The position numbers were made by a program, and so were the translations under genes. Source: Acidimicrobiales bacterium (GTDB lineage: Bacteria; Actinomycetota; Acidimicrobiia; Acidimicrobiales; DATDAH01). From it: a stretch of 64,000 nt of DNA. The notes under the pieces are model-generated. The model searched no databases. It had not been told where the DNA came from and saw only the letters and a program-made list of their open reading frames with translations. Positions 4,579-21,516 of the stretch are shown here, in pieces. The first letter of the stretch is position 1. The number at the start of each line of letters is the position of its first letter. The stretch covers positions 1-64,000 of the forward strand of contig JAEUJM010000011.1 of NCBI GenBank assembly GCA_016794585.1. The letters run 5' to 3'.

Positions 4579-4989
4579 ATGGCTCGAACGAAGTCGCGGA
4601 TCATTCGTGGGACCGGGCTGGCTCTCGCCGGCCTTGCCGCCGCCTTGTCGTTGGCCGCCTGCGGCTCCGACGAGTCGTCGGCGGACCTCGACCTGTCGCC
4701 GCAGGCGCAGGAGGGCGCCGAGGTGGCCGCCGACAACGGCTGCCAGTCGTGCCACTCGATCGACGGGTCCGGGGGCACGGGCCCGACGTGGCAGGGACTC
4801 GCCGGGTCCGAGGTCGAGCTGAGCGACGGCGAGACGGTCGTGGCCGACGCCGCCTACCTGAAGCAGTCCATCCAGGACCCGGCGTCGGCGACCGTCGAGG
4901 GCTTCTCGCCGATCATGCCGAGCTACGACCTGTCACCCCAGGAGGTCGACGCCCTCGTCGCCTACATCCAGGAGCTACCTGCCTCCTGA
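4579..4989 (+). CDS. Lipoprotein c-type cytochrome
   Basis: 136 residues. A signal peptide ends in a lipobox-like LAAC at about residue 27, so the protein is probably lipid-anchored on the outer face of the membrane. The haem c motif CQSCH spans C55-H59, and M113 in IMPSYDLSPQE is the expected axial ligand. The C-terminal helix (VDALVAYIQEL) is the usual end of a class I cytochrome c domain such as those in COX subunit II or nitric-oxide reductase chains. It probably carries single electrons. It is not next to any oxidase gene; the neighbours are a membrane protein (divergent) and apbE (convergent). A GGAACC followed 16 bases later by CGACC lies at 4544-4570, but the match to the ECF -10 is imperfect. 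Confidence 0.9.
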   Translation: MARTKSRIIRGTGLALAGLAAALSLAACGSDESSADLDLSPQAQEGAEVAADNGCQSCHSIDGSGGTGPTWQGLAGSEVELSDGETVVADAAYLKQSIQDPASATVEGFSPIMPSYDLSPQEVDALVAYIQELPAS

Positions 4990-5011: not shown

Positions 5012-6001
5012 TCAGGCGCCGGTGGGAGGGGAGGCGTCGACGCGGTCGGGCAGCGCCGCCGTGCCGAGGAAGGCGGCGAAGCCGTCGGTGGCCTGCACCC
5101 GGCCGTCGCGGTCGAGGCACATCGCCTCCGCTCCGGTGCCGCCGAGCAGGTCGAAGGGGTGCTCGCTTCCCCGCAGCAGGACGGCCTTGGCCAGGATCTC
5201 GGCCCGCCAGCCCTCGGTGGCGATGACGGTCACGAGGGTGAGGTCGCTGGTGGACGGCCGGCCCGTGCCGGGGTCGATGAGGTGGTGGCGCTCCTCGCCG
5301 TCGACGGTCCAGTGCCGCTTCAGGGTGGTGGAGGTGACCATGGCGCCGTCGAGCAGGCCCACGAGGGCGAGGGGCTCGTCCAACCACGGGTGCTCGATGC
5401 CCACGGTCCAGGCGCCGCCCTCGCCGGGGCCGGTGCCCCGGACGCGCAGGTCGCCGCCGACGTTCACGCACACGCCGGCGGCGCCCGCCGCCAGCAGTTC
5501 GCCGGTCACGAAGTCGGCAGCGAGACCCTTGCCGATGCCGCCGGGGTCGAAGCCCGTGCCCTCGGGCAGGCGCACCCGGTTGCCGTCCACCTCGATCTCG
5601 CCGGCGCCGTGAAGCAGGCGGCTGATCCCGGAGCGCCCCGGCGTGGCGGCCAGGGCGTCGAAGGTGCGGTCGTAGCCGGCCCGGATCATGTCGCCCAGCA
5701 CGGTGGGGTCGAAGGAGGCGCCGCTGATGCGCCAGGCCTCGACGGCCCGACGCACGAGGATCGACGTTTCCTCGCTCACGGTGACCCATTCGCCGGCGCA
5801 CTCGGTGAGCTGCGTGACCTCGCTGTCGGGCTGGAAGCGCGACCACAGCGATTCGAGCCGGTCGAGGCGCTGCTGCGCGTGGTCGAGGAGCGACTCGTCG
5901 GCCCGACGCTCGACCGCCTCGCCGGCGTCGTCGTCGGCGCCGCCCACCACGATCACGTGGGCGTCGCTGCCCATCACCCGGAACCGCCGCTCGGCCATCA
6001 T
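5012..6001 (-). CDS. apbE: FAD:protein FMN transferase (ApbE family)
   Basis: 329 residues. ApbE enzymes attach FMN through a phosphoester bond to Thr/Ser of exported flavoproteins, using FAD and Mg2+. Visible family blocks: N-terminal RRFRVMGSDAHVIV, then FDPTVLGDMIRAGYDRTF, then GFDPGGIGKGLAADFV followed by GAAGVCVNVGGDLRVRG (FAD/metal region), then HHLIDPGTGRPS, and near the end TEGWRAEILAKAVLL with the conserved Ala-Glu pair. A GTG start at 6010 is possible. The ATG at 6001 is preferred because TAGGGT (6014-6009, minus strand) lies 7 bases before it, fitting a leaderless transcript. No obvious FMN-acceptor protein is adjacent; the ferric-reductase-like operon at 20.3-21.5 kb is the nearest redox locus. 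Confidence 0.92.
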   Translation of the reverse strand: MMAERRFRVMGSDAHVIVVGGADDDAGEAVERRADESLLDHAQQRLDRLESLWSRFQPDSEVTQLTECAGEWVTVSEETSILVRRAVEAWRISGASFDPTVLGDMIRAGYDRTFDALAATPGRSGISRLLHGAGEIEVDGNRVRLPEGTGFDPGGIGKGLAADFVTGELLAAGAAGVCVNVGGDLRVRGTGPGEGGAWTVGIEHPWLDEPLALVGLLDGAMVTSTTLKRHWTVDGEERHHLIDPGTGRPSTSDLTLVTVIATEGWRAEILAKAVLLRGSEHPFDLLGGTGAEAMCLDRDGRVQATDGFAAFLGTAALPDRVDASPPTGA

Positions 6002-20274: not shown

Positions 20275-20583
20275 ATGGATCGCCCCAAGGCCCTCGCCCT
20301 GTCGGTGAGCATCACCGGTGTGATCGCCGCCGCCGTCGCCGCCCTCGCCCTCAACTTCGGGTTCCTGGGCGCCGGCGCCACCCCGGCGCCGACCGCCGCG
20401 GTCAGCGGGGTGACGGCCTCCGGCGCCGCCACCGTCGACCAGGGCACCGGCACCGCGCTCGACGACGTCGTCTCCACGTTCTCCGATGACGACGACGAGC
20501 ACGAGGACGACGAGCACGGCGACGAGCACGAGGACGGCGAGCACGAGGACGGCGAGCACGGCGAGGACCACGACGATGACTGA
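20275..20583 (+). CDS. Membrane-anchored protein with an Asp/Glu/His metal-binding-like tail
   Basis: 102 residues. A short N-terminus and one membrane helix (about 6-30, ALALSVSITGVIAAAVAALA) are followed by a small Ala/Thr-rich linker and a C-terminal tail of about 33 residues made only of Asp, Glu, His and Gly, in repeated units such as EHEDDEHGDEHEDGEHEDGE. Repeated DEH-type tails commonly bind divalent metals. The membrane topology puts it either outside (if a signal anchor) or inside; not decidable. It overlaps the next gene by 8 bases and heads an operon with a ferric-reductase-like membrane protein, so a role in metal capture or flavin/iron redox is plausible. Confidence 0.75.
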   Translation: MDRPKALALSVSITGVIAAAVAALALNFGFLGAGATPAPTAAVSGVTASGAATVDQGTGTALDDVVSTFSDDDDEHEDDEHGDEHEDGEHEDGEHGEDHDDD

Positions 20584-20887
20584 TCCCGCACCGGCCTCGA
20601 CCTCCCGGCCCTCCGCCGGTCCCCGGGCCGCACGCCCGAACCCCGCCAAGCGCCGCCCGCACGCCGCTGCCCGAGCCCGGATCATCACGGCCGGGATCGC
20701 CGGCACCGCCGCCTTCGGGATGGTCGCGGCGATGGCCTTGCCCCATGGCGCCGTCGCCGCCGCCCCGGGTGGGCCGGCGGCCTCGGCGTCGACCCCCACG
20801 GACGGCCGTGCCGCCACCTCGTCACCGGCCCCGGTGCCCGCAACGTCGCTGGCCCCGGCGCCGGTGACCCGCAGCAGCGGCAGCTAG
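20576..20887 (+). CDS. Small Pro/Ala-rich single-pass membrane protein
   Basis: 103 residues. The ATG lies inside the end of the acidic-tail gene (8-base overlap). A basic N-terminus (AKRRPHAAARAR) precedes one membrane helix at about 36-55 (IITAGIAGTAAFGMVAAMAL). The rest is Pro/Ala/Thr/Ser-rich and likely disordered and extracytoplasmic. No family recognised. TAGCGT at 20885-20890 near its end could be a -10 for an extra promoter of the next gene. Confidence 0.6.
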   Translation: MTDPAPASTSRPSAGPRAARPNPAKRRPHAAARARIITAGIAGTAAFGMVAAMALPHGAVAAAPGGPAASASTPTDGRAATSSPAPVPATSLAPAPVTRSSGS

Positions 20888-20916: not shown

Positions 20917-21516
20917 ATGGAGAACCACTTCTGGTGGTACATGGCGCGGTCGTCGGGCATCGTGGCCTGGTTCCTCGCCATCGCCTCGGTGCTGTGGGGC
21001 CTCGCCCTTTCGACCCGGGCCCTCGGGCCGAAGCCCCGGGCGCCCTGGTTGTTGGACCTGCACCGCTGGCTGGGTGCGCTCACCGTGGCCTTCGTGGGCG
21101 TGCACCTCGTTTCCCTGGTGGGCGACAACTACCTGCACTACAGCTGGGCCGAGCTGTTCGTGCCCATGGCCTCCACCGAGTACAAGCCGGGCGCCGTGAC
21201 GTGGGGCGTCGTGGCCTTCTGGTTCCTCCTGCTCGTCGAGGGCACGTCGCTCTTCATGAAGAAGATCCCCAAGAACGTGTGGCACTCGATCCACCTGACG
21301 AGCTACGTCGTGGCCGTCTCCTCCACCGTCCACCTGCTGACCGCGGGCACCGACTCGTCCACGCCGGCGCTGCGTTGGGCGGCGCTCGCGGGCGCCATGG
21401 CGATCGTGTTCTTCACCATCTACCGGTTGCTGGCCCCCAAGGCCGCGGCCCGCACCATCCCCAGCCGCGAGCAGCTCGCCGCCCGCCGAGCCGAGAGCGA
21501 CGGCACCGCCGCCTGA
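20917..21516 (+). CDS. Ferric-reductase-like transmembrane (cytochrome b-type) protein
   Basis: 199 residues. Five to six membrane helices carry paired histidines expected to ligate b-type haem: LDLHRWLGALTVAFVGVHLV (helices 2) and NVWHSIHLTSYVVAVSSTVH (helices 4-5). This is the layout of the ferric_reduct domain found in MsrQ- and flavocytochrome-like proteins. There is no FAD or NAD(P)-binding domain, so electrons must come from a quinol or partner protein. Within the operon the partners are the acidic-tail protein and the Pro-rich membrane protein. A GGGAGG ribosome site (20904-20911 region) supports the ATG. Confidence 0.85.
   Translation: MENHFWWYMARSSGIVAWFLAIASVLWGLALSTRALGPKPRAPWLLDLHRWLGALTVAFVGVHLVSLVGDNYLHYSWAELFVPMASTEYKPGAVTWGVVAFWFLLLVEGTSLFMKKIPKNVWHSIHLTSYVVAVSSTVHLLTAGTDSSTPALRWAALAGAMAIVFFTIYRLLAPKAAARTIPSREQLAARRAESDGTAA

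Follow-up and report, generated by a model that had tools for sequence, protein, structure and literature searches.

A membrane-anchored arm with an ApbE-like C-terminal motif beside a ferric reductase-type haem protein in Acidimicrobiales: a candidate flavinylation substrate

Genes of the locus and their counterparts in the same genome

The window, i.e. the whole stretch of 64,000 nucleotides analysed here, contains three genes in tandem that code for a small protein with an acidic tail, a Pro-rich single-pass protein, hereafter called the arm, and a membrane protein of the Ferric_reduct family, abbreviated FRD. A gene for an FAD:protein FMN transferase (ApbE) is located elsewhere in the window. 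The features and the evidence for each are the following:

20275..20583, plus strand: acidic-tail protein, 102 aa, with one N-terminal helix at about residues 8-34 (translation, paralogue, homologues)
20485..20580, plus strand: D/E/H/G tail of this protein, 32 residues (71-102) (residue count)
20576..20887, plus strand: arm, Pro/Ala/Ser-rich single-pass protein, 103 aa (translation, paralogue P0005, transmembrane-region profile with E 1e-16)
20873..20884, plus strand: C-terminal tip S-S-G-S of the arm, residues 100-103, whose last Ser is the candidate FMN site (motif conservation)
20917..21516, plus strand: FRD, Ferric_reduct (PF01794) membrane protein, 199 aa (family score, conserved His, model)
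5012..6001, minus strand: ApbE (PF02424, E 1.8e-48), about 14 kb from the arm

A previous sequence-only reading of this DNA had described a single-helix protein ending in about 33 residues of D/E/H/G, and 32 such consecutive residues (13 D, 9 E, 6 H and 4 G) were indeed counted in the first gene product. It had also described an overlapping Pro-rich single-pass protein, of which the end at 20887 was retained. Its proposed start, the ATG at 20486, was not, because translation from there runs through the acidic-tail codons in the wrong frame. The arm starts at the ATG at 20576, the equivalent of which is used in its paralogue and homologues, and the tail and arm genes overlap by 8 nt. The third gene product was correctly recognised as a ferric reductase-type protein devoid of a flavin domain, as it scores 35.4 bits against PF01794 (cut-off 28) and its Pfam hits include neither a flavin nor an NAD domain.

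Four histidines are near-invariant among FRD homologues (57, 57, 58 and 58 of 58), and those of the window copy, at positions 49, 63, 126 and 139, are likely to be the ligands of two b haems, two such haems being established for PF01794 proteins (PMC8238504). The FRD was modelled with a pLDDT of 92.3, and a fold search with this model gave no match at E 0.001, the membrane domains of NOX5 and STEAP being on top, below significance. Since the FRD lacks an NAD module, its electrons probably come from quinol or from another membrane donor.

A second tail/arm pair is present in the same genome on contig C10 (locus L009, 4400-5330), where it adjoins a divergent two-component system; neither FRD nor ApbE was found beside it in the stretch that was read. 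Its tail protein (P0004, 4400-4843) has the same helix and acidic end, with 52% identity over the aligned part, and the tail gene is therefore not a chance ORF. The genome contains two PF01794 matches, and the single-pass protein ahead of the second FRD, on contig C18, ends in SGGS.

The window ApbE is the only ApbE match found in the genome. Its family score and its conserved DPGGIGKG and HHLIDP stretches assign it to PF02424, and it aligns with solved ApbE/FmnB-type transferases, with HHLIDPGTG present. As possible partners of this enzyme, both FMN_bind (PF04205) and DUF2271 were searched for, and neither gave a match anywhere in the window genome. An FMN_bind-domain protein, typical of the MsrQ-like systems discussed below without being obligatory, is thus absent, and the clustering of a PF01794 gene with apbE that also characterises these systems was seen in relatives, the window ApbE being unlinked to the arm. 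Next to the ApbE gene and divergent from it, a small c-type cytochrome gene with a CQSCH motif (4651-4989, plus strand) was noted, the product of which is a possible electron acceptor.

Gene order and co-occurrence in related genomes

A search for the three-gene order, proposed as a check in the sequence-only reading, showed that the tail, arm and FRD genes recur in this arrangement in further genomes, as a rule with an ApbE gene between the last two. The usual operon in relatives therefore consists of the acidic-tail gene, the arm, ApbE and FRD, often with an adjoining divergent two-component system; an OmpR-type regulator signature was found at 30 of 56 arm loci and not in the window. Among named organisms, the full operon with its divergent two-component system occurs in Desertimonas flava SYSU D60003 (L282), with an arm ending in THGSR, and in IMCC26207 (L257). 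At two loci (L065 and L067) the arm precedes the FRD, and ApbE was not found in the stretch fetched. The loci sampled are the best-scoring FRD hits plus some arm hits and thus do not constitute a random draw, and several of them gave no arm, partly because of contig ends.

Among 298 genomes of the order, FRD was found in 127, ApbE in 166 and FMN_bind in 75. ApbE was present in 125 of the 127 FRD genomes versus 41 of the 171 others, and FRD in 80 of the 91 genomes that have ApbE and lack FMN_bind. All 51 genomes with a motif arm (see below) contain ApbE, 39 of them without and 12 with FMN_bind, and for 47 of 51 motif arms, the arm of the window excluded, ApbE lies within the fetched locus. In a sample of the phylum that includes the order's own genomes, FRD was found in 36 of 296 genomes. 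It also appeared in MAG records whose titles name Bifidobacterium breve or Acidobacteria (L225, L266, L222 and L254); these titles are probably wrong. Classical clusters made of an FMN_bind protein, a short FRD and ApbE were seen at L143 and L152, in genomes (G151 and G039) that also carry the arm operon. Two arms per locus were observed at L072, L137, L207 and L228, mostly with the C-terminal motif or a close variant of it in both.

The C-terminal motif of the arm and the ApbE of arm loci

The arm is a low-complexity protein except for a conserved C-terminal motif, [S/T]-x-[G/A]-S, which reads SSGS in the window copy. The profile used to find arms covered the transmembrane region only and was seeded from the 12 arms seen first, with their C-termini left out. 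In a first set, drawn from the order and excluding one arm cut by a contig end (L134) and one exact duplicate, the strict motif, followed by at most two residues, was found at the end of 52 of 58 unique arms, compared with 1.7 on average and at most 8 in 2000 shuffles and with 0 to 5 at other offsets. A second set of named genome records, from which the arms of the first set were left out, gave the strict motif in 33 of 50 arms (shuffles: mean 1.7, maximum 7) and a relaxed motif, with G, A, P or S at position -1 and at most three residues after it, in 42 of 50 (shuffles: mean 4.6, maximum 13); this set shares organisms with the first, only exact C-terminal duplicates having been removed. The profile had missed seven upstream genes, six of which had the motif, the exception being L096 (TKPS). 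Outside the order, 20 loci from 17 genomes were read, and the strict motif was present at 12 of them. Among the other eight, seven have arms with related tips rich in Ser/Thr, namely TRTS (twice), THHS, TRSS, SSSS or GGS plus four residues (twice), and one locus has no visible arm.

The strict motif is lacking in six arms of the first set, four of which end in Cys (L088, L100, L126 and L130), and in 17 arms of the second, in which six arms end in Cys loops. Such ends, of the type CTGSKCP or CSGSKC, were seen at L088, L244, L247, L267, L281, L284 and L293 and are possibly a second kind of redox tip.

As many arm stops overlap a possible start codon of the downstream gene, the motif might lack a function and simply result from the overlap of the ApbE start codon with the arm gene. 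A possible downstream start does overlap 31 of the 52 motif arms, and in 45 of the 52 the terminal Ser is encoded by AGC or AGT. The motifs were for this reason recounted on the 30 arms whose last 45 nt are free of any possible overlapping start, which include the window copy, its paralogue and the arms of L065 and L067. The strict motif was found in 22 and the relaxed one in 28 of these, compared with 63 and 68 of the other 78 arms, which makes an overlap artefact very improbable. The codon bias was seen in the strict non-overlapping arms too, 19 of the 22 having AGC or AGT for the terminal Ser.

The motif resembles the site found in the substrates of ApbE. The published ApbE motif is D-x-x-[S/T]-G-A-[S/T], with Thr preferred over Ser, and replacement of its G by A or of its A by V leaves about half of the flavinylation (PMC12052999). 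According to the same source, ApbE recognises seven-residue peptides and tags work best at termini. An exact [S/T]GA[S/T] is found at the tip of only six arms (L074, L085, L103, L124, L212 and L222); most tips have S, R, H, N or K in place of the G at position -2. The SSGS of the window tip lies outside the published motif, and we therefore do not claim membership of the ApbE substrates for the window arm. The same short motif was also looked for in the neighbouring proteins as alternative sites of flavinylation, and [ST]GA[ST] occurs in none of the 38 tails and in a single one of the 58 FRDs; these candidates were rejected.

The phylogeny of the ApbEs was inferred twice, because a first tree contained only three FMN_bind-linked rows; the second included 23 of these together with 31 others hand-picked out of 81. 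Rows labelled as arm ApbEs in both trees are ApbEs from FRD-centred loci. For a few of these rows, among them L078, L086, L092, L200, L203, L213 and L216, an arm with the strict motif was not found, and only part of these few are included in the second tree. A single branch with an SH-aLRT of 100 separates the 31 ApbEs of FRD-centred loci from the 23 FMN_bind-linked ApbEs of the same order, and the FRD-locus side also holds other classes of the phylum. The window ApbE is on this side, within a supported set of six, and its placement was the same in the first tree.

The ApbE frames were also inspected for signal peptides. In 44 of 67 frames, which could be anchored at the first motif, a hydrophobic low-complexity stretch precedes this motif in one and in none of the other 43, and a signal peptide was likewise not seen in the FMN_bind-linked ApbEs, which were read by eye, nor in the window ApbE. 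The ApbEs of arm loci thus seem to have no signal peptide and, judging from their sequences, would be cytosolic. Cytosolic ApbEs are known (PMC12052999). FMN would in that case be attached in the cytosol before export of the arm.

The best-supported explanation of these data, to which we give a probability of roughly 0.6, is that the SSGS of the window arm works like an ApbE substrate and that the locus mediates an MsrQ-like transmembrane electron transfer in which FMN would be carried by the last Ser of an unfolded arm and not by an FMN_bind domain. The motif counts compared to shuffled sequences, the six exact sites, the co-occurrence with ApbE and the split in the ApbE tree argue for this explanation. 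Most tips, however, have neither the G at -2 nor the D of the published motif, and a flavinylated tip would have to be exported, since the ApbE is cytosolic by sequence. The unlinked position of the window ApbE, the presence of FMN_bind in 12 of the 51 arm genomes and the missing motif at 8 of the 20 loci outside the order also speak against it.

The deviations from the strict ApbE motif, mostly the substitution of the G at -2, and the Cys loops at the ends of some arms would also fit a tip through which ApbE, FRD or another partner docks on or recognises the arm and which is not a flavin site; the arm would then be a tether or an assembly factor, and ApbE would modify another, unlinked protein. 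We consider this unlikely, as neither FMN_bind nor DUF2271, the two alternative acceptors searched for, was found in the genome, six arms carry an exact ApbE site at the same place, and ApbE is found beside nearly all other motif arms and in every arm genome.

A proposed electron path and the role of the acidic tail

If the arm is flavinylated, the cytosolic ApbE would transfer FMN from FAD to its last Ser, and the flavinylated arm would subsequently be exported, which is the weakest point of the model. The arm would be inserted with its basic N-terminus inside and its C-terminal part outside the membrane, the FMN at its tip would take electrons from the haems of the FRD, and the arm would convey them across the cell wall to an acceptor, for instance Fe(III), a different oxidant or a cytochrome. 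The product of the acidic-tail gene, which overlaps the gene of the arm, may sit next to the arm and attract cations or dock the tip.

This arrangement resembles the MsrQ-like flavinylation systems with ApbE and FMN_bind that were described as common in Actinobacteria (Meheust et al. 2021, PMC8238504), in which a PF01794 haem protein and apbE have been proposed to export electrons from the cytosol. Those clusters typically include an FMN_bind protein, and their PF01794 protein often bears an NAD-binding module. Neither is found in the window locus; an acidic-tail gene and a domain-free arm are present instead, and no signal peptide was seen in the ApbE. The FMN_bind/FRD/ApbE clusters of the same order (L144, L153, L158, L161 and others) are similar in that a single-helix protein with a Ser/Thr-rich linker is encoded beside ApbE and a PF01794-type protein, but this protein has an FMN_bind domain with a strict SGAT, and the ApbE falls across the supported branch. 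A flavinylation motif in an unstructured C-terminal region is also known from the FMN_red substrates (mSystems 2024, PMC11334425), mostly of Firmicutes, in which it extends a folded flavin-binding domain that the arm does not have. Finally, the engineered Flavin-tag shows that a short C-terminal peptide with the strict motif suffices for ApbE (PMC12052999), and the arm would be its natural counterpart with a looser motif. None of the papers listed by our literature search describes C-terminal flavinylated arms beside ferric reductases.

The 2021 survey dropped genes without a signal peptide and counted 670 genomes (4% of those surveyed) with ApbE but without a known substrate, whose substrates remain unidentified (PMC8238504). 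The arm is a candidate substrate of such "orphan" ApbEs and a test case for the group filtered out by that survey. It may belong to a class of natural, domain-free flavoproteins, spread across Actinomycetota, that consist of Pro-rich cell-wall arms with one covalent FMN on the last Ser and are served by a cytosolic ApbE subfamily dedicated to them; in a second class the tip would be a C-x-G-[ST]-[KR]-C-P loop. This proposal, which would explain many of the ApbE genomes without known substrate, appears to us evenly balanced between true and false. If it is true, an anchor and a flexible linker bearing a single covalent flavin are enough to make a redox carrier, which would change the picture of flavin-based electron transfer across thick cell walls and provide a natural flavin tag.

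According to the sequence-only reading, a complex that delivers or reduces metal, with a metal-binding D/E/H tail, takes the place of the usual FMN-binding partner, an idea that could be abandoned if the tail gene were not conserved near ferric reductases. The gene is conserved: an acidic single-helix gene, defined by at least six D/E in the last 25 residues (mean of those found, 14.4), immediately precedes 38 of the 66 arms, the other 28 including several contig ends and tails below the threshold. The absence of the usual partner was also borne out by the lack of FMN_bind in the genome; the tail as its metal-binding substitute was not. Acidic tails can bind cations, and the conservation of the gene together with the 32-residue run of the window copy would suit a tail that binds a divalent metal and passes it to the ferric reductase, the tail and not the arm being the heart of the system. 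However, 9 of the 38 tails contain no His in their last 25 residues, an acidic gene was not found directly upstream of the 28 other arms, the scores of the window tail against ZnuA and ZrgA (NCBIfam) are at chance level (6.1 and 6.4 bits, with cut-offs of 268 and 185), and ApbE is given no part. As the tail histidines are not conserved, specific metal delivery is unsupported, and a metal-specific tail as the core of the system was dropped as quite improbable. The Pro-rich arm, via its ApbE-like C-terminal motif, together with the window ApbE, which the sequence-only reading had not linked to these genes, is more likely than a metal-binding tail to replace the FMN-binding partner; metal reduction is a possible final reaction. 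The acidic tail itself might collect cations near the flavin tip or dock the tip.

Some tails contain a beta-sheet domain of about 75 residues between the helix and the acidic end. A sequence pattern finds it in 11 of the 38 tails and not in the window copy, and one more tail (L120) was included in the alignment after visual inspection. None of six such tails gave a Pfam match above cut-off, and a Foldseek search gave no match at E 0.001 (best 0.038). The domain model is confident for about residues 56-130, and the best aligned chain is 4k15 (Z 7.9, rmsd 2.5 over 77 residues), a similarity that may reflect only a common arrangement. Tails with this domain include those of L137, L131, L099, L105, L063 and L062.
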